Made by a program: the position numbers and the translations under genes. The notes below the pieces were generated by a model. It made no database searches. It was given only the letters and a program-made list of their open reading frames with translations, and had not been told where the DNA came from. Positions 1,674-25,168 of a stretch of DNA of 25,982 bases are shown here, piece by piece (within the stretch, counting starts at the first letter, position 1; each line of letters starts with the position of its first letter). This DNA comes from a virus. Where the stretch lies: positions 1-25,982 of IMG/VR virus record IMGVR_UViG_3300036791_001543, one strand, 5' to 3'.

Positions 1674-3110
1674 TTACAGAGTCCGGTTGCCGACATCACC
1701 CAGACCAAAGCCATAGGTTTGGACATGAATGGTGTGGCGGATTCCTCCAAGAAAATTACGAAGTTCGCTTTCCAGCACATCGAGCGCCTGCTGCTGATTC
1801 ATCTGGGCATTTTGCCAGTCCTGTTTTTCTTCCAGAAACTTGGCGACCATCATAAGCCGAATTGCTTCGTAGTTCTTGATGGTCATCATATCCCCGGGCT
1901 GCTTCATCATCCAGCGCAATTTACAAACCAGGGAGATGCACGCGCCGTCGGTGCAACTGGAAGTGAGTTTGTATTTTCGCCGCGGCGAATCGAATCCGGG
2001 CTGTTTATAGTCGCCCTGGTCGATCAGCATGTAGTCGCAGGTGCAGTCTCCGGGGCCATTGTCCAAATGCGGAAAGAACTGGCTGCGGATCGGGATGGGA
2101 CGCCCGTTCAGGTTGATGGCCAGCACCGATTCCACGTTGCGCGGCATGTAGATGAAGCCGCCCAGCACCGTGGCAGTGAAACTTTCCACGGTGTTTTTCC
2201 ATCTTCCTTTCTCCATCAGCCTCCGCTCGGCCTGATTGATGTGCCAGGTGAGATCACGCTTGCCCATTCGCAGCGCCTCCGCGATGTCGAGTGCGATCTG
2301 TGCGCGTGTCCACCCCAGTGTGCTCACCGCGAAAGTTGAAATGTCCTCCAGGTAACCGGCCTTGCGGAAGGCGTAGTTGCGCGGATCGAGCATGTGCTTC
2401 TTCACCTCGGCCTGCAAGATGTCGAAACCCTGCTGCCGGTATTTTACCGCGTCATCCGGAGCATTGTTTTCGTAGCGTTCTATGGCCAGGATGATGCATT
2501 TCACCGCCTCGATGTTCTGGACGATCAGGTAATCTTCCTTGCTGGTAATGGGCAGAAAACGCTTTGCTCCGGTCACCTGAATCACGGCATTCCCAGGCTG
2601 CAACCCCGGGTAAGAGTAGGCACGTCTCACATCGGAGGGGTCGTCAGGATTGGCGTTCAGCCCGAGATCAAGGAGCGGATTATCCATGGTTTGCTCGGGA
2701 TCGACGTAGGTAGAGGTGTTGACCATCTCGTACCACAACTGGGTAACATCTCCGTTACCAAATATTTTGGTGTTGGAATCGACTACGTGCGCCTCGATGA
2801 TGTTTTCCATGCTGGGCGGCAAGACCAGGATTCCAGACACCGCGGTGATATTACAAATGGACATGCCGCCCACCGGGATCATGGTGTCCAGGATGATCTT
2901 GGTGGCTTCGTTCAGGCGCACCATTACCCGCGGATCGTCGAAGCACACGCCATTGTCCACCACGCCGCAAATCATGGGCGCAGCGTCCTTGAAACGCAGG
3001 CCGCCCTGCAACGGCAACGTGGTTGGCGGCGGAGGGAAAAAAACATTGTCCGGAACCGGCTGCGTGAGATCAGGCGGCACAGGCTGGGTAATGTCCGGAG
3101 TAGTTATCAT
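1674..3110 (-). CDS. Probable head-tail connector (tail tubular A / gp11-like), internally duplicated
   Basis: 478 residues, ATG overlapping the upstream stop (ATGA). The N-terminal 35 residues are Pro-rich. The rest seems built from two copies of one domain. Residues about 65-111 (RLNEATKIILD, then a beta pair ending in ILVLPPSMENIIEAHVVD) align with 290-337 (HINQAERRLME, then GGFIYMPRNVESVLAINLNG). Residues about 197-245 (VQNIEAVKCIILAIERYE) align with 411-460 (IKNYEAIRLMMVAKFLEE). The pattern of a helix with a basic ridge, a beta hairpin with a Pro before a conserved Asn/Val, then a long C-terminal helical pair is that of podoviral adaptor or tail tubular A proteins. The position near the nozzle gene supports this. 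About twice the usual length of about 200 residues. The family call is by pattern and context. Confidence 0.55.
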   Translation of the reverse strand: MITTPDITQPVPPDLTQPVPDNVFFPPPPTTLPLQGGLRFKDAAPMICGVVDNGVCFDDPRVMVRLNEATKIILDTMIPVGGMSICNITAVSGILVLPPSMENIIEAHVVDSNTKIFGNGDVTQLWYEMVNTSTYVDPEQTMDNPLLDLGLNANPDDPSDVRRAYSYPGLQPGNAVIQVTGAKRFLPITSKEDYLIVQNIEAVKCIILAIERYENNAPDDAVKYRQQGFDILQAEVKKHMLDPRNYAFRKAGYLEDISTFAVSTLGWTRAQIALDIAEALRMGKRDLTWHINQAERRLMEKGRWKNTVESFTATVLGGFIYMPRNVESVLAINLNGRPIPIRSQFFPHLDNGPGDCTCDYMLIDQGDYKQPGFDSPRRKYKLTSSCTDGACISLVCKLRWMMKQPGDMMTIKNYEAIRLMMVAKFLEEKQDWQNAQMNQQQALDVLESELRNFLGGIRHTIHVQTYGFGLGDVGNRTL

Positions 3111-3886
3111 GTGGTGCTGTAGCCGACAAAGATGATGTAACCGAGGGCAATGAACGGTGGAATGATGTTGATGGGTTCTGGCGTGATCTCAGAAATGGCG
3201 TCCAGCAGCACTTGATTCTTGGTGTCGTCCGACGCGCTTTGCTTACCAAAGAGATTTCCACCGGAGGCCAGAGCCTCACCTCCGTTTGGAATGGTATATT
3301 TGCCAACCTTCACTTCCGGAACCGAAACGTAGGTGGTAGCAGGAGTGAGAGTGATCTCCCTGAAGCCGCCGGTGTGTTCCCCGGCGTCCTTGACTTCAGT
3401 GGTCACCCATTCGCTGCCGTCCCATCCCGGGACGGTGACGTTATTCATGTGAGCGGCGATGATGAACCGGTCGGACAGGTCAACGACGCCATCTTTGCCG
3501 TTGCAAATATGCCAGCCGTCATAGGTGCCGCCTACCACCCCGAGTCCGCCAGTATCGCCCGCAACGGGTGTCCATACTGATGCGTCAGTGGGATCGCCGC
3601 TGAAAATGCGGATCTCTCCCAGCATTCCGTTGTACACACGACGCCAGTTCCCATTGAACCAGGTTTTTACGGCAATAGGACGCTGCTGGCTGTCCACCTC
3701 TACCCAGATCTTGTCGTGGTCGTCAGACCCCGGGGGATTGTTCTGGACGAGGTAAGTAAGGTAAGTACCCTGGATCGCTGAACTGACCAGTGTGTTCAGT
3801 AGCTGAACCAGTTGCCCGATATTCAGCGGCGCGGCATTCGGATCGGGTGCGGCAAACTGCGTTAAAACTTCAGGAGGCGCGCTCAT
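3107..3886 (-). CDS. Phage tail collar-like fibre-tip protein
   Basis: 259 residues; the ATG overlaps the upstream stop (ATGA) and its own stop overlaps the next start. Residues 124-144 read GWHICNGKDGVVDLSDRF and the C-terminus has IPPFIALGYIIFVGY at about 242-256. This pair (Gly-Trp-x-x-Cys-Asn-Gly, a short insert, Asp-Leu-x-Asp-Arg-Phe, then Pro-Pro-x-x-Ala-Leu-x-Tyr-Ile-Ile) is the signature of the collar/knob domain of tail and short fibres. The N-terminal 90 residues are a probable attachment region with a Trp-rich stretch. Likely acts at the tail tip in host contact. It sits between the nozzle and connector genes, consistent with a tail-tip or short-fibre protein. Confidence 0.7.
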   Translation of the reverse strand: MSAPPEVLTQFAAPDPNAAPLNIGQLVQLLNTLVSSAIQGTYLTYLVQNNPPGSDDHDKIWVEVDSQQRPIAVKTWFNGNWRRVYNGMLGEIRIFSGDPTDASVWTPVAGDTGGLGVVGGTYDGWHICNGKDGVVDLSDRFIIAAHMNNVTVPGWDGSEWVTTEVKDAGEHTGGFREITLTPATTYVSVPEVKVGKYTIPNGGEALASGGNLFGKQSASDDTKNQVLLDAISEITPEPINIIPPFIALGYIIFVGYSTT

Positions 3887-4200
3887 AGGCTAGTTGCTCT
3901 GCTTTTCTCCACCTGCTTCTGGGCATGCAGCCGGAAACGGTTGATAATGACATGGCCATTGCCGACCAGTCGAACCTGAAAGTTAAATCCCCGGCGGGTA
4001 TTGCGCCCAGTGGTCTTGTCGCACACGTTTTGGGGCTTCCCGAAGGCAACCCGCGGTGCAAATCCAGCACGGGCCAGCGGGATTCCGCCTGCGTCCAGGT
4101 CGCCAGCCTTGCCGATCATGTCGAAAACCTCAACGAACTCCTTCCAGGGAATCCACTCCGGGTAATTGTCAGGCCGGTAGAATGTTTTCAGGATATTCAC
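3883..4200 (-). CDS. Small hypothetical tail-module protein
   Basis: 105 residues. The start is GTG, which overlaps the nozzle stop (GTGA), and the stop overlaps the collar-gene start (ATGA), so both ends are fixed by translational coupling. The sequence begins MNILKTFYRPDNYPEWIPW and ends with a basic segment; it contains a predicted beta-rich middle (GFNFQVRLVGNGHVIINRFRL). No Cys pair, membrane helix or known motif is seen. The tight packing between nozzle and collar genes suggests a small structural or accessory tail protein. I do not recognise it. Confidence 0.7.
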   Translation of the reverse strand: MNILKTFYRPDNYPEWIPWKEFVEVFDMIGKAGDLDAGGIPLARAGFAPRVAFGKPQNVCDKTTGRNTRRGFNFQVRLVGNGHVIINRFRLHAQKQVEKSRATSL

Positions 4201-5828
4201 TCAACAATCTCCTTCATCCAGATGTCGGCATCGTAGATCTCGTTCTCAGTAAAAGGCGTTGACGCCTGCTCCAGCTTTTCAAAATCAAACGCCCTGGTAA
4301 CCAATTCCCAGGTGATGCGCTGCCCGTCCCAGTCGTCCTTGTCGTCCTTGCTGAATTCAAACAGGTAATTCTGGTTGTCCGGCCCGAGGCAAAACATGAA
4401 GGCCCGCGTGATGCCATCAAAGGTGCCTGACAGAACCTGCAAAATCATGTATCCCCCGGGCATCACCCATTGTCCGTCCCACGCTGGCTGAGAATTCTGC
4501 CCAAAGGAACTCAGGATGTCGAAATCCACCGACATTAAGCCAACATGAATCGGTCGTTCCTGGTTGGGCATGGGGGAAGTGGTCACCAGCACGCGGTTGT
4601 CAAAGTAGATGGCCGAAGCGTATTTGAGCATCCAGCCACTGTCGTTGTTCAGGAACTGCTTGACGTTGGTGGACTGCGGAATGTGCGGCCAGCCAGTGGA
4701 CTCGCTGCGCGCCTGCCGGTAGGAGCGCATGCCGTCATCGCTCCTGAACCAGAGATCTTCGTTGGCCACGGCGATGGAGCGGTGGCCGCGCAGCCCGGTG
4801 GTGAGCAGCGACAGGATCTGGAACTGGCTGGCCTTCCACTCTTCACGGGGGAGCGACAGAAAGAACGATGCCGCCCCCCGCTCCGCGAAGACCATCAACT
4901 GTCCGTTTCCGGTGGAGGTATCCAACTGGGGAAAGAACACCGCGCCAGTGGCCACACCCTGTTGGAAGGGAATAGCCGCGTCAAAACCTTCTGCCAGGAA
5001 ATTGCGCTCCGTAAAAAGAACCAGAGAATCAGCAGGATCTGGCAGGTCGTGGCTGCCATAAAGGTCTCCAAAAGCAACGTCTCGTTCATTGACTATGACT
5101 ATGATTCGGCCCATTCCGTAGGCCATTATGGTTCCGACCGGCACTTCGGATTTGTTCGGATCGTCAGTAGTAATCGAGCGCCTGGCCGTCGAGCCATCGT
5201 ACAGGATCGGCCTGGCATCTCCATCCTGAATCAGCATCCACTTGTCGGCCTGGCACATGTAGGCAATGGAGTTGCTTTGGTCGTTGCGGAGACGCCGCTG
5301 GCCGGTTTGCGCAGGAGGACTGGATGGCGGATCCGGATCAAGACGCTCATCAATGATGATTTCCGTGACACTGGACGTGGTTACCTTCGGGACGATCCTG
5401 AACATCCGTCCCCCGATCATGGCCACGATGCAGTCTTCCCCGTGGTGAGGAGAATAGGCTGAGGCGCACTGAAACTTCCCGGTGCGATAAATGGTTTCAG
5501 AGCCATCCAGATTCGATGGAGGGGCAGGAGGGTTAGGGGGATTGACCAGGAAAGGCACACCCTCGACACCGGTGTATTCTCCGGTGATCCTGTGCGCAGA
5601 CGTACTGTCGAAAGGCTGGTTGTAAACGAATACCTGGTCGAGAATATCCGGGAATTGTTCGTCCAGTTTCCTGAACCCAGGGCGCGTGGTGACGCTTCCG
5701 CCACGGAAGGTCATGTTGATGGCGCTTTCGGACTGGTTGGGCGCAATCATGTCCGGTGAACGACCGGCATCGACGCCGCCTTCCAGGCTGATCCAGCCAT
5801 CAAAAATTCTGTTCTTATCGACTATCAT
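4197..5828 (-). CDS. Probable tail nozzle protein (tail tubular B-like)
   Basis: 543 residues from ATG at 5828; an in-frame ATG 33 bases upstream would overlap the previous gene by 30 bases and seems less likely. The N-terminus has the signature of podoviral nozzle proteins: GGVDAGRSPDMIAPNQSES (about 17-35), then Ala-Ile-Asn-Met, then RGGSVTTRPGFRKL, that is, Gly-Gly, Pro-Asp-x-Ile/Leu, Asn and a Arg-Pro-Gly-Phe turn. The rest is beta-rich with repeating short strands and Trp/Phe-Asp turns, consistent with a beta-propeller nozzle. No catalytic site is seen. Expected to form the hexameric distal tube of the short tail. It lies next to collar-like and connector-like genes, which supports the call. 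Confidence 0.65.
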   Translation of the reverse strand: MIVDKNRIFDGWISLEGGVDAGRSPDMIAPNQSESAINMTFRGGSVTTRPGFRKLDEQFPDILDQVFVYNQPFDSTSAHRITGEYTGVEGVPFLVNPPNPPAPPSNLDGSETIYRTGKFQCASAYSPHHGEDCIVAMIGGRMFRIVPKVTTSSVTEIIIDERLDPDPPSSPPAQTGQRRLRNDQSNSIAYMCQADKWMLIQDGDARPILYDGSTARRSITTDDPNKSEVPVGTIMAYGMGRIIVIVNERDVAFGDLYGSHDLPDPADSLVLFTERNFLAEGFDAAIPFQQGVATGAVFFPQLDTSTGNGQLMVFAERGAASFFLSLPREEWKASQFQILSLLTTGLRGHRSIAVANEDLWFRSDDGMRSYRQARSESTGWPHIPQSTNVKQFLNNDSGWMLKYASAIYFDNRVLVTTSPMPNQERPIHVGLMSVDFDILSSFGQNSQPAWDGQWVMPGGYMILQVLSGTFDGITRAFMFCLGPDNQNYLFEFSKDDKDDWDGQRITWELVTRAFDFEKLEQASTPFTENEIYDADIWMKEIVE

Positions 5829-5829
5829 G

Positions 5830-7413
5830 TTATTTCCACATTCTCGCTCCCAGCGCAGCAAGCTGATCCCTTCGCAAAAGGTGTTCCTTGCCTGGCACCG
5901 GCATCACCGCACCCTGCTGATTATGATTGAGCACCACTTCCCCCGGGGTCAGCATGGCAGGCACAGTATCGGTCGAACCTCCGGTTGGCGTTGTCAGGTT
6001 GGTCGCCATATTGGGTCGCGGCAGGGATCTTGTCATTGCGCTGGGAACGACCGCTCCACGCCATGCCATCAACGCTCCGGATGCGCGCTTGTCGTACATT
6101 TCAGGCCTGTAAGTGCCTTCAGACATCGGCTCCTGTTTTATAGGCCACGGGCCAGTGCGACCCCTGAATCCCCATGGAGGGAACTCCGGGTCGTAAACGC
6201 CCCCGAGACCGGCCAGTCGCATTCCACTGGCGCGAGAATAATTTTCTGCGCCGCTGGCAGGTCGCGGCCCCATCATGAAGTCAGACAAGCCGCCTCTGTT
6301 TGCCGGTTGACCCCATGGCGGAGGATTCGGGCCAAGCAGGTAATCGCGGGCGCTTGGCGGCGCAATGGCGTTGCCCCACGGCTGCGGATCAGGCGACTTG
6401 GTGAGATATTTTCCGAGTTCTCCCAGCGCATGGAAGATGTCCTCGGACTTGCGGCCTACATTGTAAACGGCCTGCCCGATACGAGACGGAGGAGAATTTT
6501 CATCCACGGCGTATGGCGTGCTCGGCTCTACCACTCCGCCGCCCTGGAGGGCTTGAGTCGGTGGCCTGCCAGCGCCTCCAATTCCCGCGCCGCTGCCGCT
6601 TCTAGTTCCCGGCAAAGTGAACCCGGTCTTACTTATCCAGTCGCCAACATTTTTGTAACCCTGTGACTGTGCCCAGTTCTGCATGCCCGTTCCGTGCAAT
6701 AAGAGGGCAGCCATGAGATTGCCACCGTAACCGCTTCCACCGCCGCCGAGGTTTCCGAGATTTCCGCCACCGAGCACCGTGGGCGACCCGCTGCCGCCGA
6801 AGAAACTTCCGCCACCGGCTGGAGAATTGGGACTGACGATTCCCCGAGTTCCAGGGCTGCCGCCAGGCCCGTATGGATTGTAGTCACCTGGGCCTCCGGT
6901 TCCACTGAAAGGATCGACATCCTGCCCAGAGGCAGCGCGCTCCTGTGGGGTTCCGGTGGTATCTGTCGGCAAAGTAGGAAGACCGGCATTATGCAACAGC
7001 ATGTTGATCCGGTCTCTGGGGCTGAGATCGACCCCGGGGACAACTCCAGAGTCATCTCCCCGGTTGCCCTGCCCTGGTGGCGTCACACCACTTGGCGGAT
7101 AGGCGCTCGATGGAATGTTACTGCCTGGCGGAAACGCCTCACTGGGAGGATTCACTAATTCACCTGGAGTCACAGAGCCACCAGCACCGTTCGGCGGAGG
7201 TAGTAAGTTTTGAGGTTCTATCGGTATTCCGGTCGGTTCAGTGGGGTCACCCCCGCCGAACTGAGGGATATTGGGCGGCGGCTGCGGGCCAAGGACTTCA
7301 GAAGGAAAACCCTGTCCTCCTCCGGTAGCAGCAAGAGGAGCGGACTGGGTTTGAAAAGTCGGTCGCTGAGGCCCGTATATCCTCATCCACCACGGCATGC
7401 TTTGAGAAGGCAT
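5830..7413 (-). CDS. Pro/Gly-rich virion protein with VPAMLTPGE motif
   Basis: 527 residues, ATG 1 base after the upstream stop. Most of the protein is low complexity: Pro, Gly, Ser and Asn with repeats of PPWG-like and DYLLGP/DFMMGP-like words. Only short stretches look foldable. Near the C-terminus, about residues 482-496, it carries DTVPAMLTPGEVVLN, followed by a short helical end (RRDQLAALGARMW). This motif (Val-Pro-Ala-Met-Leu-Thr-Pro-Gly-Glu-hydrophobic) recurs in phage tape-measure and internal virion proteins, from general knowledge; its function is not settled. With no long-tail gene set around it, an internal or ejection protein is more likely than a tape measure. This role is inference. 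Confidence 0.65.
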   Translation of the reverse strand: MPSQSMPWWMRIYGPQRPTFQTQSAPLAATGGGQGFPSEVLGPQPPPNIPQFGGGDPTEPTGIPIEPQNLLPPPNGAGGSVTPGELVNPPSEAFPPGSNIPSSAYPPSGVTPPGQGNRGDDSGVVPGVDLSPRDRINMLLHNAGLPTLPTDTTGTPQERAASGQDVDPFSGTGGPGDYNPYGPGGSPGTRGIVSPNSPAGGGSFFGGSGSPTVLGGGNLGNLGGGGSGYGGNLMAALLLHGTGMQNWAQSQGYKNVGDWISKTGFTLPGTRSGSGAGIGGAGRPPTQALQGGGVVEPSTPYAVDENSPPSRIGQAVYNVGRKSEDIFHALGELGKYLTKSPDPQPWGNAIAPPSARDYLLGPNPPPWGQPANRGGLSDFMMGPRPASGAENYSRASGMRLAGLGGVYDPEFPPWGFRGRTGPWPIKQEPMSEGTYRPEMYDKRASGALMAWRGAVVPSAMTRSLPRPNMATNLTTPTGGSTDTVPAMLTPGEVVLNHNQQGAVMPVPGKEHLLRRDQLAALGARMWK

Positions 7414-8940: not shown

Positions 8941-9933
8941 CTAGGGGAGTTTCAGGTTAGAGATTGTGCTGTTGTTGTAACCATCCCTGGCAGCATAGGC
9001 TTCAACGAAATCGCCACTGGCCAGAGAAAGGGAAATTTTGATGTCATTCGGATCTGCGGGCACAACTTCGATGAAAGCGCCCCCGTTTACCCGGTAAAAC
9101 AGATTGGATCCAGCCAGCTTGGATCGGATGACAACGTTGCTGAAACTGGTTCCAACGCCAATCCCCACTTTGATCTCCGGAGGGGTAGCAAATGGCTGGT
9201 AGGCCAGAATGAGCACAAATGGCCGCCATGTCATGTCTCGACCGAGGTAATTGTTGGGAGAACCGTCCAGCCCAGGATCCGGAATCGCCCCGGCAGCGTG
9301 GCCGCTTCCCATTCCAGTAGCCAATGGAAGCATGGATGGCAGCACATTTCCGGTTGTAAACTTGGAGGCATCAATACCAGGCAGGAGTGCAGCCGGTATC
9401 GGTGAAGGGAGGAAAGAGGGAGTTCCTCCCATCACGCCAAAGTAGGTGTTATTGTCCACTAATCCCCATCCCTGCGTTAGTTGCCCGGAATCTATCACCG
9501 GAACACTCTGGAGGCCGAACACAGTCGGCATGTGCAAGCCCACGAGGTTTACCGTTCCCGCGGCTGCACCGGTACTAATAACTGAAGAAGCGACCCTGCC
9601 GTTGACATCAATCCCGGGGTAACCGTTGGGGGCGTTCTTGTTGGCGACCCTTTCCACCAGATCGCCCTGGGCAGCCTGTTTACTCGATGCGCCCAGCCAT
9701 CCCGAAGGCAGGTTGCCATTAAGATTGAGTTTGCTCTGCGCGATGTCAGCGACAGGCGACACGCTCTCATTGGTGACACTTCCTTCCGGAGGCACGCGCT
9801 GGTCGTTGAGCCGCTGGTCGCCAGCGTCCAGAAGCGGCGGAGGCACAGGCAATAGAAGCGCGACATTTCTCAGGACAAAATCGTTGCAATCCAGGTTGGT
9901 TGCCAGCAGTGCATTTTCCAGTCTCGGGATCAT
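8941..9933 (-). CDS. Fibre-like protein, paralogue 2 (chitobiase-C-like end)
   Basis: 330 residues; the ATG overlaps the stop of its paralogue upstream (ATGA). It matches the 334-residue neighbour along its length: LENALLATNLDCNDFVLRN at the N-terminus, then GSVTNESV, a Leu-Gly-Ala/Thr stretch, GYPGIDVNGRVASS and IDASKFTTGNV in the middle. The last 85 residues form a beta-sandwich-like segment ending EAYAARDGYNNSTISN, a pattern I associate with the chitobiase/beta-hexosaminidase C-terminal domain and related carbohydrate-contact modules. The N-terminal part resembles fibre attachment and trimer-shaft sequence. No enzyme active site is seen, so an adhesin is the likely role. Confidence 0.75.
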   Translation of the reverse strand: MIPRLENALLATNLDCNDFVLRNVALLLPVPPPLLDAGDQRLNDQRVPPEGSVTNESVSPVADIAQSKLNLNGNLPSGWLGASSKQAAQGDLVERVANKNAPNGYPGIDVNGRVASSVISTGAAAGTVNLVGLHMPTVFGLQSVPVIDSGQLTQGWGLVDNNTYFGVMGGTPSFLPSPIPAALLPGIDASKFTTGNVLPSMLPLATGMGSGHAAGAIPDPGLDGSPNNYLGRDMTWRPFVLILAYQPFATPPEIKVGIGVGTSFSNVVIRSKLAGSNLFYRVNGGAFIEVVPADPNDIKISLSLASGDFVEAYAARDGYNNSTISNLKLP

Positions 9934-10934
9934 GTCGCGTTGGGATTGGTGTAGCTGACGATGTTGCTGTTGTTGTAACCGGCCCGGGCGCTGTAGATCC
10001 AGATCGTCCCCAGTGGCGGCACGCTGACGTATCCAGTGGCCGGAAGAACGGAAAAGCCGGTGGAACTGGAAGTAAGCGAATACATGAAAGTGGCGTTTAC
10101 AGTGCTGGTTGGAGTAATGGTTTGGCCGCCGGTCGGATTGGTTGGAGGTGTTATGACCGGATCGGGCAGGGTCGGCTGGTAAAGGACAGCGATGGTAGGG
10201 ACTGGCTTAAAGCTGATGTCGCGGGCCAGGTAATCGGTGGCCAACGCTCCGCTGCTTCCATCCCCGGGGTCAGGCACTGCGCCCGGCGCGTGAGATAGCC
10301 CCACTCCCACCGCCAGCGGCAGACGGGCAGCAGCAAAAACTCCGGTAGTAACCTGTGCCGCGTCCATGTTTGGAATCAGGGTGAGCGGCAGTGGATCGGT
10401 GTAAAACTGCGGCGACCCGGCCCCGCCCTGTTTGTTGCCGAACCAGGAAAGATTTGGCACCGATCCCCATGTCACCGCAAATGTTCCCGCTGCGGTGATG
10501 GGGCTTCCGGCCACAGCGAACTCCGGCGGCATGCTAAGTGCAACTGAAGTCACCGTTCCTGTGCCGGTAGTGCCAGGAAGCTGGCTGGAAGCCAGTTTTC
10601 CGCCGCTATCCAGACCGGGGTAACCTCCTGGCTGATTCTTGTGTGACAGGTATTCGGCCAGGTCTCCGCGTGCCGCCTGATTGGAACCGGTTCCCAGCCA
10701 CGCCACTGGGATGTCGTCATCAAACAGAAGCTTGCTCTGCTCGATGGCCGCGTCCGCCGCTACGGAGTCATCGGTCACGCTTCCCGGCAGCGGCTCGCGC
10801 TGGTCGCTCAGGCGCACATCGCTGTTCAGGGCCAGATTGCCGGGCACCGGATCCAGTCCACCCAGATTCAGGAGCGCATAGTTCCTGCCATCGAGGTCGG
10901 TGGCCAGAACGGCATCTTCAATAAGTGGTGTCAT
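9930..10934 (-). CDS. Fibre-like protein, paralogue 1 (chitobiase-C-like end)
   Basis: 334 residues; the ATG overlaps the upstream stop (ATGA). It shares with its downstream neighbour the N-terminal LATDLDGRNYALLNLGGL, the GSVTDDSV and EQSKLLF words, GYPGLDSGGKLASSQLP, AAQVTTGVF, and the ending IYSARAGYNNSNIVSYTN. Between about residues 125 and 230 lies fibre-shaft-like sequence (GTGTVTSVALSMPP, followed by a TWG turn) common in phage fibres. The C-terminal segment is Thr/Pro/Ser-rich and then forms the chitobiase-C-like strand pattern. The two genes are a tandem duplication that has diverged most in the last third, as expected for receptor-binding ends. Confidence 0.75.
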   Translation of the reverse strand: MTPLIEDAVLATDLDGRNYALLNLGGLDPVPGNLALNSDVRLSDQREPLPGSVTDDSVAADAAIEQSKLLFDDDIPVAWLGTGSNQAARGDLAEYLSHKNQPGGYPGLDSGGKLASSQLPGTTGTGTVTSVALSMPPEFAVAGSPITAAGTFAVTWGSVPNLSWFGNKQGGAGSPQFYTDPLPLTLIPNMDAAQVTTGVFAAARLPLAVGVGLSHAPGAVPDPGDGSSGALATDYLARDISFKPVPTIAVLYQPTLPDPVITPPTNPTGGQTITPTSTVNATFMYSLTSSSTGFSVLPATGYVSVPPLGTIWIYSARAGYNNSNIVSYTNPNAT

Positions 10935-17241: not shown

Positions 17242-17547
17242 TTAGTGCGCTGTTTCGTGTTTTGGCGGTGCTTCGTAAGTGGACGGCCCGGGGTCAGGGG
17301 CGACCATCTTCGCTTTGGACAGAAGTTTAAGAGTGTCGCCATATTTAGAATAGCCACGGGTAACGCCCAATTCGATGGCTGCACGGGTGGGCGATACATC
17401 TTCGTTCTTGTCGCCGTTCAGGGCAAAGCGGGCGGGGTGGTTTTCTTCCATGAGCGACATGACCAGTCGCAGGATGCCGTTTGTCTGTAGTTCTTTGGCC
17501 CATTGGCTAGGCAGGTACTTGTGCCTCCTGAATTCTTCTACTGTGAT
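17242..17547 (-). CDS. Small phage protein with apparent ATC start
   Basis: 101 residues if begun at ATC 17547, which gives a chain starting (M/I)TVEEFRRHKYLPSQWAKE and LRLVMSLMEENHPARF. An AAGGAG lies seven bases before this ATC. The reading overlaps the portal stop by 10 bases, in keeping with this operon. The next in-frame ATG (17460) would drop 29 residues of convincing sequence and has no ribosome site in front; a CTG at 17514 has AGGAGG nine bases upstream and is the other candidate. The protein looks like a short helical phage protein (Val-Glu-Glu-Phe, then Gln-Trp-Ala-Lys). The role is unknown. It lies between portal and scaffold. Confidence 0.6.
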   Translation of the reverse strand: MTVEEFRRHKYLPSQWAKELQTNGILRLVMSLMEENHPARFALNGDKNEDVSPTRAAIELGVTRGYSKYGDTLKLLSKAKMVAPDPGPSTYEAPPKHETAH

Positions 17548-20213
17548 GACTGCTCTCCTTCCTGTTTACGCCTGGCCGCGGCAGCCGCAAGCGCGTTCTG
17601 GTTGCGTATGGCCGTGGCGGTCTTGGCAGTCTCGCGCTGGATCGACGTCCTGGTCTTAGCGCCTTCACGGGCAATGGCGGTCTTGGCCTTGGCGTCTTCA
17701 CGCTGGATCTGGGTCTGCGCCTTGAGGGTTTCCCGCTGGATGCCGGTGCCGGTTTTCTTGTCCGAAAGGGATTCCGAATGCGCGGCCTTGCGTTCCTTCA
17801 GCCCGAACTCATGCTGCTGTTTCTGGCCTTTAAGCTGAAGGTCGCCCATCACTTTCACCATCGCTGGATCGGGAGGCTGCGGCTCTCCCGGTGGCGGCTG
17901 CTGGGCCATCGCGCCAAGGTGCTCGGTCAACTGCTGGTGCAACTGATCGGAAATCTTCCCGACCATATCGAGTTGTTTCTGCTTTTGTTTGACCTCCATT
18001 TGTCGGGTGGGATCGCCTTGCAGCGCGGCGAGATGCTGCGCCATGTGCGGCCCGGCCTGTTCCATGTGGATCAATTTGGAAGTCATGTCCGCCGGATCCA
18101 TCGGGCCAGCGCCGTTGCTGCCGTTGCTGCCATTTCCCGCCACCACGCCGCCCTGCGCATATCCGATTGGCGTTTGCCCGCTTGGCGGAGGAAGCGGCAA
18201 CTGCCCGGCAGGAAGCGTCTGAATGGGCGGCCCTCCCATCGCACCAACTCCTCCCATCGCGCCCGACGGCGGCGGGCCGCCTTGACCGCCGCCCTGTCCC
18301 TGCTGCTGCATCATCTGAGCCATTTGCGGAGCGACATGCTGCATGACGTCCTGCATGTGAACATCGAAATGGATGGAGTGATTCTGCTGCGGTTCCACCA
18401 GTGCGCGTCCGCCCTGCGTCCGCAGCGCGTTATTTTCCAGGACGGCCAGCGCCGCGTGCGCGTCAGGGACGCCGCTTTTCTCAATGGGCTGAAAGTAGGA
18501 ATCGACCGAGTACATGCCCACCCCGGGGAGTGACGCCACCCGTGCGCGAAGGGCGTGATTACGGCCCACTTCGTTCATGTAGGGAATCAGTTGCACCAGT
18601 TGCGTGGTGGCGACATCGCGCAGTTGGGGCGAACCGTAGCCGATGGAGCGGGTGGAAACGACCCTTTTGATGTTCCGGAAATCGAGAATCTGGGCAGGAA
18701 TTCCGCGTATGATGCAGCGGGCCTTGAACTTCATGGCTTCCAGCCCACCGGGAATGGTTTCGTTCTGGGCCGGATCAAGGAGGCGGCGGAGGGTTTCCCG
18801 ATGCCATTTGTCCAGATTATTGTAGTAGCGATTGGTTGCGCCCTTGGTCAGCGTGCCCTGCTGCTGCGAAATGATCTGGGCCTGCCCGAGAGTCGGTTCG
18901 GGCCGCGATTCATCGCTGCGCTGCCGGTAAGAGCCGGTGTTTTGCTGGAGAGTTCCGTGCAACTCGCGCCGGATGGCCAGTGCTCCTTCAAGTGCTTCAG
19001 CGATTCGGGTTTGGGCAACCTTGTATCCAGGGGCGACCACCGAAGCGCCTCCGACCAGTGATATTTGGGTTTCCTCCAGGGAATTGGAGTCCTGAGTTTC
19101 CAGCGTAATACCAGAGCCAATGACCGCGCCATCAAGCATCTGGCAGAAGGTTCGGTTCGATATGTCGCAGTAGTCATAGATCTTCGGCCCCAAGCCCTTC
19201 ACCGAATGCCAGGTGCCGTCCGGCCCGGTGTCGAAGAAGAAGGGGCAAAGCACCTGCGCGAAAGAGTCGTACTTGTTGCGGCGCTTGAAGATATAACCGG
19301 TTTCCTCGGCTAACGAGTCATAGGGCTGATCCTGATTGATGGGGCTGTCGGTGATGATGTAGTGGGAGATTTTCCCGCCAAATTCCTTAACAAAAATGCT
19401 GGCCACATAGATTCGGTCGCTGCGATGAATCCCGTAGAAGAGATCGCCTGTGCGGATGGCGCGCTGGTAGAGGTCGTAGTTTTCCATTCCCCAGGTGGTG
19501 CGCATTTCGCGCATGGAGCAGTCGATGATGGCCTGTTTGCAAAGAGGGCGGTTCCATCCTTCCCCGGCTGGGTCGTCAGTAGCTCCCTTGTCCAGAAACG
19601 AATCCAGCTCATCGGCCCGGTAGGAATGCAGGACGACGCACATTTCCAGCTCATCCACGTTGGCCTTGGTCTCGATGGGGACAAGGACTTTGCGGGCCTT
19701 GGTGGCTTCGGAATGCCAGCCCAGGTAATGCGGCCAGAAGAGCGGCCCGGTGCCGTTGACGATCATCTGCCACTGGTGAAGCTGCATCTGGATGTCGAAG
19801 CCGTCCCAGGCTGAAAGCACATCGGTGTATTCCTCGGTGATCCAGCCGTTCCACTGATCGACCATCCATGATTCCTGACCGGCGGTGTCGAACTCGATCT
19901 GGGCAAAGCTGGGCACTTCAAATACCAGGTCGTAGTAAGGCGTCTTGGCCGCCTCTACGATACCCTCCGACTCACGAAGGTTGAAATTGGCCCGGTGTCC
20001 CTGCCCGATGTCGATCAGCTTTTGGGAATTCCAGGGCGGGTTGCCGTCCATGAGTCCCTGAATGGTGGTGTAACGGTACATGCGCTCGTCATCTTCATGT
20101 TTGAGGCGCTGCACCAGCGAGCGGGCGTTACCGGCGTTGCCAATCCTGGAAGTAGGCCGTTTCCCGGTCTCGGGATCGAGCGTGGCCAGCCGTTGTCCGT
20201 AGGTATCGGTCAT
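17538..20213 (-). CDS. Portal protein
   Basis: 891 residues from ATG 20213, which overlaps the upstream stop (ATGA); an in-frame earlier ATG is rejected. The body (1-620) is a podovirus-type portal: FKRRNKYDSFAQVLCPFF, GTWHSVKGLGPKIYDYCDIS, the long helix through TLGQAQIISQQQGTLTKGAT and the following YYNNLDKWHRETLRRLLDP stretch. Residues about 640-760 are Gly/Pro/Gln-rich linker. From about 760 the protein becomes helical, and at about 820-874 has five 11-residue repeats (IQRETLKAQTQ, IQREDAKAKTA and similar). Function: dodecameric vertex ring through which DNA enters and leaves. It is longer than P22 portal (725) because of the added tail. Confidence 0.85.
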   Translation of the reverse strand: MTDTYGQRLATLDPETGKRPTSRIGNAGNARSLVQRLKHEDDERMYRYTTIQGLMDGNPPWNSQKLIDIGQGHRANFNLRESEGIVEAAKTPYYDLVFEVPSFAQIEFDTAGQESWMVDQWNGWITEEYTDVLSAWDGFDIQMQLHQWQMIVNGTGPLFWPHYLGWHSEATKARKVLVPIETKANVDELEMCVVLHSYRADELDSFLDKGATDDPAGEGWNRPLCKQAIIDCSMREMRTTWGMENYDLYQRAIRTGDLFYGIHRSDRIYVASIFVKEFGGKISHYIITDSPINQDQPYDSLAEETGYIFKRRNKYDSFAQVLCPFFFDTGPDGTWHSVKGLGPKIYDYCDISNRTFCQMLDGAVIGSGITLETQDSNSLEETQISLVGGASVVAPGYKVAQTRIAEALEGALAIRRELHGTLQQNTGSYRQRSDESRPEPTLGQAQIISQQQGTLTKGATNRYYNNLDKWHRETLRRLLDPAQNETIPGGLEAMKFKARCIIRGIPAQILDFRNIKRVVSTRSIGYGSPQLRDVATTQLVQLIPYMNEVGRNHALRARVASLPGVGMYSVDSYFQPIEKSGVPDAHAALAVLENNALRTQGGRALVEPQQNHSIHFDVHMQDVMQHVAPQMAQMMQQQGQGGGQGGPPPSGAMGGVGAMGGPPIQTLPAGQLPLPPPSGQTPIGYAQGGVVAGNGSNGSNGAGPMDPADMTSKLIHMEQAGPHMAQHLAALQGDPTRQMEVKQKQKQLDMVGKISDQLHQQLTEHLGAMAQQPPPGEPQPPDPAMVKVMGDLQLKGQKQQHEFGLKERKAAHSESLSDKKTGTGIQRETLKAQTQIQREDAKAKTAIAREGAKTRTSIQRETAKTATAIRNQNALAAAAARRKQEGEQSSQ
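17587..17751 (-). repeat. Five tandem 33-bp units in the portal 3' end
   Basis: Units start at 17587, 17620, 17653, 17686 and 17719, each 33 bp, encoding 11-residue helical repeats with a hydrophobic residue, Gln/Ala-Arg-Glu and a Lys-Thr or Lys-Ala pair at fixed places (about residues 820-874). The first-listed unit is the most diverged. The spacing is that of a hendecad coiled coil. The copies differ at several bases, so they are old or under protein-level constraint. Confidence 0.75.
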
Positions 20214-21022
20214 GGCGCTGGGACTCCGTATTTGGCCGCCCATCCGGCCTGAAGACCCTGGATCTTGTCAAAAGCAAGCGCACTATTATACATGACCACC
20301 TCGGCAATCCCGCCGTTGAACGGCCAGGAAGTTAGATCGCCCAGCATGCCGATGACAATGTTGTTATTAAAAGCGTCTGTTCCGGAGTCACCGCTGTTGC
20401 GCAGGATGGCATCGCGGTAGATTTTACCGGAAGTGCCATTGAACACGGCGCAGTAAACGTTGTACTCCGAGGTGCTGGTGGCCACGGGAGAAACTAATCC
20501 TGTGGTGGAGGTAGCAGTGCCAAAGTGGTCGGTGCTATCGAAATACATCAACTGCCGCGCCCCAGGGTTGTAGGTGTCTATCATGGCAGTTGGAGTCCCG
20601 AAACCAGCCCGGGCTGCTATCACAAAGATGGTATCCGGCTGCGACAGTGAAACCGGGTTGGCTGATCCCATGTAACCTTGAGTGAATCCGAAAACAGGTT
20701 TGCCGTTTACCTGGTTGTTGAAAAACGTTGGCCGCCCCGACCCTCCAAGGTTCAGGGTCAACCCTTGTGGCCCCGACTCCACGATGCTGTTGGGATTCCA
20801 TCCGTCAGGAAAAGAGTAGGCATCGGCTTTCATCCAGAAAAACATACCGGCTACCTGATCCGGGGTAAGCGGCACGATGGGCGCTGGGCCGCTGCCGCCA
20901 TGCGGATGAAACCCCCGGTCGTTGAGCGCCCTGTCTCCGCCCCGGTTATAGCCGATGCCGCGGTCTAGCAGGCGGCGGTCGCCGCCAAACACACCGCGAT
21001 CAGGATCGGAACGGGTTCGCAT
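20210..21022 (-). CDS. LamG/ConA-like domain protein with Arg/Asp/Gly-rich N-terminus
   Basis: 270 residues; ATG 1 base after the upstream stop. Residues 1-45 hold repeated Asp-Arg-Gly and Gly-Gly-Asp-Arg words (DRGVFGGDRRLLDRGIGYN). From about 50 to the end the chain follows the concanavalin-A/LamG pattern: FFWMKADAYSFPDGW, GSGRPTFFNNQVNGKPVFGF, PDTIFVIAARAGF, AVFNGTSGKIYRDAI and GGIAEVVMYNSALAF, with the closing WAAKYGV. Such domains bind carbohydrate or mediate surface contact. No enzyme pair is visible. Its position before the portal is odd for an adhesin, so it may be a head-decoration protein. The role is inferred. Confidence 0.75.
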   Translation of the reverse strand: MRTRSDPDRGVFGGDRRLLDRGIGYNRGGDRALNDRGFHPHGGSGPAPIVPLTPDQVAGMFFWMKADAYSFPDGWNPNSIVESGPQGLTLNLGGSGRPTFFNNQVNGKPVFGFTQGYMGSANPVSLSQPDTIFVIAARAGFGTPTAMIDTYNPGARQLMYFDSTDHFGTATSTTGLVSPVATSTSEYNVYCAVFNGTSGKIYRDAILRNSGDSGTDAFNNNIVIGMLGDLTSWPFNGGIAEVVMYNSALAFDKIQGLQAGWAAKYGVPAP

Positions 21023-23353: not shown

Positions 23354-23523
23354 TATTTCTGGTCGATGTTGGTTTCGGTATAGCGGCACAGATCGAAAAT
23401 CACCAGTATCAGGACTCCCAGTGCTTCCGCCACCGACAAATCGAATTCCTTCGAGAAGCGATCCACCACCTTGTCGATCTCCTGCTTGAAAGCCTGGGCC
23501 TGCTTAAAATCTTGATCCGGCAT
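23353..23523 (-). CDS. Small helical protein overlapping the terminase 3' end
   Basis: 56 residues; the ATG at 23523 lies 20 bases inside the large terminase gene and the stop shares a base with the next start (TAATG). The sequence MPDQDFKQAQAFKQEIDKVV and LSVAEALGVLILVIFDLCRY contains a charged helix and a hydrophobic segment of about 12 residues, too short for a firm membrane call. No motif. It is easy to miss because it is under 60 residues, but the fixed start and stop overlaps make it credible. Confidence 0.65.
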   Translation of the reverse strand: MPDQDFKQAQAFKQEIDKVVDRFSKEFDLSVAEALGVLILVIFDLCRYTETNIDQK

Positions 23524-25168
23524 ATTCGCTTAAAAGGTTGCGCTTCTTCAGGAAACGTTTCCAGGGTGAATCGGGGCGTTCCTCAGTGAAGGACTGGCTC
23601 TTGGGCGAAAGGCCGCAGCGGGCCGCGCAGGTCTGCGCCGTCACTACGTCGGCATCGGCCAGGTCGGGCGACTTGCGGGTGCGATCTTTCATCTTGGCCT
23701 TGGTTTCCAGCACAATGTACTGGCCGCGCATCGACCACCAGCGGCGGCAGAACTCGACGGCGGAATCCTCATCCAGTCCGCGGATCTGCTCGTTGAGAAG
23801 TAACAGCCGGAACTGAAACCACAGCTCGGTCACTCTGCGGTCGTATTCTTCATCGGCGCGTTTGGGATTGGTATCGCTGACTGGTTGCCTGGTTGGCCTT
23901 CCACCGAATTCCACACACAGGATTTCACGGCTCCATTCCCGATGGAAGATGGAAGCCAGCCCGCCGCCTTCGCCGGTTGAGTCGAGGCCAAAGTAGTAGG
24001 GCTGCACGCCGCGCTGCTTGCAGGCTTCCTTCACCTGCCGTACAATCTGGTAGTGAATGGGATCGTCGGGCTTGACCCGAGGAGTTACGAAAAGGCGGTC
24101 GGTAAAAAGAAGTGTCATTTTGCCGTTCACTTTCCCGCAGCGCCCGAAGCGCAGTACGCAGCGGTCTTCACCTTCAAAGGCCGGATCGAGGCCGGCCACA
24201 TTGATGGCTTCCTGGTCGAAGAAGCAGGAGTCCATGGCACTGCTGCGGGTAATCATGGGCATGGAGAGGACGGTCTTCTGAATGCCTTCCGGTGCCCAGA
24301 AGCCACGGCGCATCTGCCAGAACTGCGGGGAATCGACCCCATAAATCTTGGTGGTGGTGTCGATGTCGGACTGGTTAATCAACCCCGGGTAAAGGTGCTT
24401 GGATCGAATACTTGGGCTTTTGAGGCCGTCCAAGTGAATGCAAATGCCGCGGCGGGTTTCCCACGATTCGGTTTCCACGTCAACCGAATCCCAGCCACGC
24501 TTGGGTTCGCACATCCGTCCATGAGGATCGAGATGATCGTCCGCGTTCCCAAGGCCGATAAACTGGAACTTGGAAGCGCCGGACTCAAGGTTGACGCAGG
24601 CCTCCACGATGGCTTCAGGGGTATAAGGCATTTCATCGACAATGACAAACATCTTGGGCGCGTGGAAGCCAATCAGTTTGCCGAGGGCTTTTTCCACTTC
24701 ACCCTTGTCCGTGGCGATCCCAAAAACACCGCTTTCATCCGGGCCTTTGCGGTACTTGATGCAGTTGCGCGACTGAACCATGTAACCGTAAAGCGGCCTC
24801 AGCCGATGGAACTTGGCAATTTCCTTCCACACGCGACGTCTCAGCCCATCGAGAGTCGTACTTGTGCAGATGACCACAGTATTGGCGGGATCGGCGTAAA
24901 AAGCGCAAAGAGCGAAGATGGCGGCAGAAGTGGTCTTCCAGGAGGCGGCAGGGCCGGTGACAGTGGCCCAGGGATTCTCGCAAAAGGTGCGGATCAGGAG
25001 ATCCGACCAGTCGTTCCAGATGAAAGTGTCTTCCTTGAACTTGTTCCAGATGGCGTCAATGGCATTGCGGCAATGCAGGTAACGACCCAGCCCCAGAGGA
25101 GGATCGTTGCCGAAACTCCACAGCTCAATGGCCTGCGGATCGGTGGTCGGGAAGTTCTTGCCGTACAT
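23504..25168 (-). CDS. terL: Terminase large subunit
   Basis: 554 residues, the DNA-packaging ATPase/nuclease. The Walker A is VTGPAASWKTTSA (70-82), with Lys78-Thr79; the Gly normally before Lys is a Trp. Walker B is FVIVDE (174-179). The coupling motif FIGLGN is at 203-208. The RuvC-like nuclease domain shows GLDPAFEGEDR (Asp328), YYFGLDSTGEGGG (Asp396) and the closing Asp-rich KSPDLADAD (502-507). The ATG overlaps the small-subunit gene by 44 bases. Function: cuts concatemeric DNA and drives it into the prohead through the portal. Confidence 0.85.
   Translation of the reverse strand: MYGKNFPTTDPQAIELWSFGNDPPLGLGRYLHCRNAIDAIWNKFKEDTFIWNDWSDLLIRTFCENPWATVTGPAASWKTTSAAIFALCAFYADPANTVVICTSTTLDGLRRRVWKEIAKFHRLRPLYGYMVQSRNCIKYRKGPDESGVFGIATDKGEVEKALGKLIGFHAPKMFVIVDEMPYTPEAIVEACVNLESGASKFQFIGLGNADDHLDPHGRMCEPKRGWDSVDVETESWETRRGICIHLDGLKSPSIRSKHLYPGLINQSDIDTTTKIYGVDSPQFWQMRRGFWAPEGIQKTVLSMPMITRSSAMDSCFFDQEAINVAGLDPAFEGEDRCVLRFGRCGKVNGKMTLLFTDRLFVTPRVKPDDPIHYQIVRQVKEACKQRGVQPYYFGLDSTGEGGGLASIFHREWSREILCVEFGGRPTRQPVSDTNPKRADEEYDRRVTELWFQFRLLLLNEQIRGLDEDSAVEFCRRWWSMRGQYIVLETKAKMKDRTRKSPDLADADVVTAQTCAARCGLSPKSQSFTEERPDSPWKRFLKKRNLLSEYAGSRF

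Follow-up and report, generated by a model that had tools for sequence, protein, structure and literature searches.

A probable podophage-type tail adaptor with ring domains fused in tandem in a family of IMG/VR phages

The adaptor gp11 of phage T7 forms a twelve-fold ring; it has a helix bundle, a fibre dock and, at its C-terminus, an element that embraces the portal (PMC6702177). In phage SU10, twelve adaptors in two alternating conformations are located between the twelve-fold portal and the six-fold nozzle (PMC9509320). For both SU10 and P-SCSP1u, neighbouring adaptors were found to be inequivalent, with two adaptors per nozzle subunit and fibre trimer (PMC9509320, PMC10575957). In phicrAss001, five dodecameric rings encoded by four paralogous genes are stacked upon each other. 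These ring paralogs are about 15-31% identical to one another, and according to the same study other podoviruses have been seen only with one such ring of one protein (PMC10172136).

Here we describe a protein from IMG/VR virus record IMGVR_UViG_3300036791_001543. The window, that is the whole stretch of DNA analysed, is the entire record of 25,982 bp. The protein is very probably a podophage-type tail adaptor in which two diverged ring-domain copies are fused head to tail; the repeat is demonstrated by sequence comparison and the fold is predicted. Its gene shares a 4-bp overlap with the upstream gene 3107-3886 and comprises the following features.

1674..3110, minus strand: tandem adaptor (connector/ring) protein, 478 aa; ORF with ATG start and 12 other distinct homologs, all fused
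2352..3005, minus strand: first copy (N), residues 36-253; matched to the second copy by hhalign and HMM, AF2 elements
2562..2864, minus strand: beta insert of copy N, residues 83-183; AF2 secondary structure
2304..2405, minus strand: spacer between the end of helix 4 (copy N) and helix 1 (copy C); family comparison
1677..2351, minus strand: second copy (C), residues 254-478; separate AF2 model, Foldseek matches to podophage adaptors
1905..2201, minus strand: beta insert of copy C, residues 304-402; AF2 secondary structure
1677..1748, minus strand: free C-terminal tail, residues 455-478; conservation, family pattern GIRHTxHIQTxGFGLGDVG

A first-pass annotation had proposed a connector protein built from two fused copies of the same gp11-like domain at 1674-3110. 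Its coordinates and residue numbers are correct, and the strand, which it left unstated, is minus.

Internal repeat of the 478-residue protein

Relatives were first reached via the terminase and portal genes; their records were then searched, and family alignments were used as well. The fused protein is present in each of the 13 distinct family members, which come from uncultured IMG/VR phages, most of them about 50-55 kb in size, and an artefactual fusion of two genes is thereby ruled out.

The repeat within the protein is real. The segments that had first drawn attention to it, residues 65-111 against 290-337 and 197-245 against 411-460, align as described, and the sequence words quoted from them are present. 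When the window protein was split at residue 255, the halves reached a local BLOSUM62 score of 80, compared to a mean of 30 for shuffled sequences (s.d. 4.4, maximum 58), which corresponds to a Gumbel p of ~2e-7. Family profiles of N and C were matched by hhalign with a probability of 96.5% (E 7.7e-10, 184 columns), while the highest of 40 column-shuffled controls reached 0.9%; an earlier run with fewer sequences had given 89.9% (E 1.7e-6, controls at most 3.1%). Furthermore, an HMM built from the N copies alone matches the C copy of the window protein (domain E 4.7e-6), as does the reverse (4.1e-6).

One might argue that the similarity arose by chance, or that the halves have unrelated folds. 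Residues 36-253 and 254-478 of the window protein are only about 16% identical (14-22% between N and C across the family), and in some relatives the single-sequence test is less significant (L043, p 5e-4; L049 and L050, p 2e-3), while it is strong in L081 (3e-7). However, the distance of the hhalign result from its controls, the reciprocal HMM matches and the same layout predicted for both halves bear out two fused copies of one domain, and we consider chance or unrelated folds extremely improbable. In a tree of the copies, a fully supported branch sets all N copies on one side. Consequently, the duplication is older than the divergence of this phage family.

Predicted fold and genomic setting

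For the full protein, AlphaFold2 (AF2) yields a model of low confidence (pLDDT 57, pTM 0.39). In this model, both halves contain in the same order two helices, a six- to seven-strand insert and two helices; in copy N these elements are H40-47, H60-76, six strands at 83-183, H200-214 and H218-241. The predicted layout of either half is thus a bundle of four helices with a beta fibre-dock domain inserted into it, and the inserts of N and C are similar in size. According to the model, the insert of copy N sits where the T7 and SU10 adaptors carry their fibre-dock domain (PMC6702177, PMC9509320). Modelled alone, the C half reached a pLDDT of 76.9 and a pTM of 0.72, but this model is not wholly independent of N, since its alignment pools all copies (N, C and the middle copy M of the three-copy homologs described below).

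A Foldseek search with the full model gave SU10 gp11 as best PDB match (E 1.8e-4, probability 1.00), followed by KHP30, Pa223, A4, phicrAss001 ring proteins and GP4; the matched part is presumably the better-modelled N half. The C half alone matched Pa223, SU10, Carin 1, phicrAss001, A4, KP32 TTPA and T7 gp11 (6r21), the podophage adaptors at a probability of about 1.00 and T7 6r21 at 0.96, and it also resembles many predicted viral adaptors in structure comparison. Two of the predicted viral proteins, A0A5Q2W8Q5 (410 aa) and A0A6J5Q433 (402 aa), are candidates for further fused adaptors. TM-scores of the structural matches are moderate (0.4-0.56), with an rmsd of 6-12 A.

By sequence, no homologs of the adaptor were detected in Pfam, PHROGs, NCBIfam, PDB sequences or 50,697 phages (tblastn), in agreement with the earlier remark that no named family is known to have this layout. 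Comparison by hhalign with T7 gp11, P22 gp4 and the phicrAss001 ring proteins was no better than negative controls, and the adaptor assignment therefore rests on fold and context. Consequently, the term 'gp11-like' used in the first-pass annotation is appropriate for the fold as judged by structure comparison, but not for the sequence, which has no detectable relation to T7 gp11 or P22 gp4. The top PDB sequence matches of a pooled profile were designed TIM barrels; they cover one helix region only and are not meaningful.

The genomic setting is provided by the following genes.

23504..25168, minus strand: terminase large subunit; tblastn to annotated phage terminases, E about 7e-7
17538..20243, minus strand: probable portal protein, from its size and its location between the terminase and capsid genes; relatives share 60-70% identity
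13828..15021, minus strand: probable major capsid protein, from the top conservation in the module (83-87%)
4197..5861, minus strand: probable nozzle (tail tubular protein B-like), from its position and an N-terminal motif; 56-67% conserved in relatives, start at ATG 5828 or TTG 5861

On the minus strand the order is terminase, probable portal, a 434-aa gene, probable capsid, fibre-like genes, probable nozzle, two small genes, the adaptor and then a 303-aa Gly-rich protein. Apart from the terminase, we infer gene roles from size, order and motifs. The gene order around the adaptor is conserved in relatives, the nozzle being a putative assignment there as well. The probable portal and nozzle have no family or PDB match (for the nozzle, by sequence), and the probable capsid protein has no match in public phages. 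None of these three candidates has a convincing relative in the 50,697 public phage records, and the family as a whole therefore seems to be undescribed there. No relatives of the adaptor or the capsid protein were found in cellular genome contigs, and thus no host is indicated.

Several further observations concern this module. In relative G017 (IMGVR_UViG_3300005937_000026, 54,405 bp) the ends are repeated (123 bp identical), which suggests a complete genome of ~54.3 kb for this family; its assembly break falls inside the terminase gene. In the window, a 105-aa ORF (3883-4200, minus strand) overlaps the probable nozzle gene (4197-5861, minus strand) by four bases. The two are separate ORFs in G003 as well, while they form one frame in G011 (605 aa) and G017 (760 aa). 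Two adjoining fibre-like proteins of 330-334 aa (8941-9933 and 9930-10934, minus strand) share the same best match in G017 and look like tandem paralogs. Between the portal and terminase genes lies a 270-aa protein (20210-21022, minus strand) that shares 30% identity with part of a 543-aa protein adjoining the capsid gene in G003, so that its domain seems to move within the module.

Beyond the adaptor, relatives carry a gene of about 330-350 aa and then a protein of 1945-2254 aa. Podophages encode their ejection proteins at this position. The representative in G003 (L067:6886-13650, minus strand) has 2254 aa and its counterparts 2192 aa in G011 and 1945 aa in G017. Its Pfam matches, HATPase_c (4e-9, residues 1403-1542) and Pyr_redox_2 (3e-9, residues 555-866), are unusual for a virion protein.

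Copy number and arrangement of the copies

Two copies are present in nine of the 13 family members, while the remaining four (L051, L052, L066 and L079; 579-588 aa) have three, with an extra 136-145 residues between N and C. A profile of the middle copy, built from L051, L052 and L066, matches C with an hhalign probability of 96.2% (E 2.1e-9, controls at most 6.8%) and N weakly (23.6%, controls at most 4.6%). Its beta insert has collapsed to about 20-30 residues, and both helix pairs, as assigned by alignment, are kept. No single-copy member was found in IMG/VR viral contigs. Likewise, the window record and three related records, among them G017 with its repeated ends, contain no other ORF matching the domain HMMs that could represent a second adaptor gene. 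The diverged member L081 has two copies, but is placed with the three-copy members in the N tree and with the two-copy members in the C tree. The two trees thus give no consistent direction of copy-number change.

The spacer, measured between the same two anchors, has a length of exactly 34 residues in each of the nine two-copy proteins. The free C-terminal tail is strongly conserved across the family; it is located where T7 gp11 carries its portal-embracing tail and might, by analogy, play the same role (PMC6702177).

If a hexameric nozzle and a dodecameric portal are assumed from other podophages, we lean slightly toward an arrangement in which twelve chains sit on the twelve-fold portal and each copy forms its own ring, the rings being stacked like those of phicrAss001. 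The N copies would build one ring and the C copies another. The portal would be gripped by the free C-terminal tail of the last copy, while the tail of each earlier copy would climb onto the ring above and run straight into its first helix. Such a path would be feasible in an up-down bundle, since both domain ends lie on the portal side. The resulting order would be nozzle - N - (M) - C - portal, with the number of rings set by the copy number in the gene and the third, middle copy reduced nearly to its helices.

Stacking is favoured because three-copy chains would have to contribute four per twelve-fold ring, which does not fit a six-fold nozzle, while six such chains would give eighteen domains. 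In addition, the N-C identity is within the range of the stacked phicrAss001 paralogs, and a low identity is expected, since stacked copies would have different partners. The fixed spacer counts for the stacking topology as well, and the conserved free tail for this topology with C facing the portal and N the nozzle.

Another scenario could be envisioned, which we regard as possible, yet clearly less probable: a planar pseudo-dodecamer, in which a single ring on the portal is built from six chains and its twelve positions are taken alternately by N and C domains. The fusion would then hard-wire the alternation that single-domain adaptors reach by conformation, and each chain would represent the repeating unit of the six-fold nozzle and fibres. 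This fits the inequivalent neighbours of SU10 and P-SCSP1u (PMC9509320, PMC10575957) and the similar-sized beta inserts that both copies keep in the window. However, the three-copy homologs would lead to 4x3 or 6x3 domains and clash with the six-fold nozzle or the twelve-fold portal. Copies at equivalent portal sites should furthermore have stayed more alike than observed, and the N and C tails differ. The first-pass annotation had suggested either a ring from half as many chains or two stacked layers with different jobs. While the former is possible for a two-copy protein, it is hard to square with the three-copy homologs, and the latter is the better fit.

It is unlikely that one copy alone forms the channel ring, with the other (and the middle) copy outside as a collar or fibre-docking module. 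The loss of most of the beta insert in the middle copy indicates that copies can specialise, and N is better conserved than C among family members (mean identity 62% vs 52%). However, the complete helix-insert-helix layout is retained in both copies, which also match ring-forming adaptors, and no known adaptor uses a second copy in this way. Taken together, the stacked-ring explanation as a whole, namely a fused podophage-type adaptor with stacked rings and C at the portal, its stoichiometry and ring order being inferred, is the one we favour with modest confidence.

Comparison with described adaptors and ring proteins

Domains of this predicted fold and role are already known, while the tandem fusion with two or three copies is new to the families, phage records and papers searched; in the literature covered, in which subscription journals are thinly represented, we found no tandem or fused adaptors. 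A fused adaptor of variable copy number would represent a second way of reaching multi-layered tails. In addition, the twelve-to-six symmetry change of podophage tails would become readable from the gene, since two copies permit a single alternating ring and three do not.

Like SU10 gp11, T7 gp11 and KP32 TTPA (7z47, 6r21, 5mu4), the protein is predicted to combine a helix bundle, a beta domain between the helix pairs and a C-terminal tail. It shares with them about 190-230 residues per domain and probably a place in the tail module of a short-tailed phage. In contrast to these adaptors, which have one domain per chain and twelve chains, it comprises two or three domains per chain and has no detectable sequence similarity to them. 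With P22 gp4 and Sf6 gp7 it shares the probable adaptor role and a helical core, and the middle copy of the three-copy proteins, reduced as it is, looks like an adaptor without dock domain such as these. They differ, however, in being single-domain proteins without a beta insert and in lacking sequence similarity to the protein described here.

Like phicrAss001 with its rings R1-R5 (gp43, gp40, gp35, gp34; 7qog, 7qoj), the window phage possesses diverged ring-fold paralogs within one virus, the two phages being otherwise without visible relation. While the phicrAss001 rings are encoded by separate genes and stack as dodecamers, the copies are here fused in one gene. Repeating a domain inside one gene suggests a lengthened or restructured DNA-injection channel. 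We regard the prospects as evenly balanced that this podophage-type family builds a multi-ring tail barrel from one polypeptide with tandem ring domains, and varies barrel length or composition as whole domains are gained or lost (two or three per chain), which would be the covalent equivalent of the separate rings stacked in phicrAss001.
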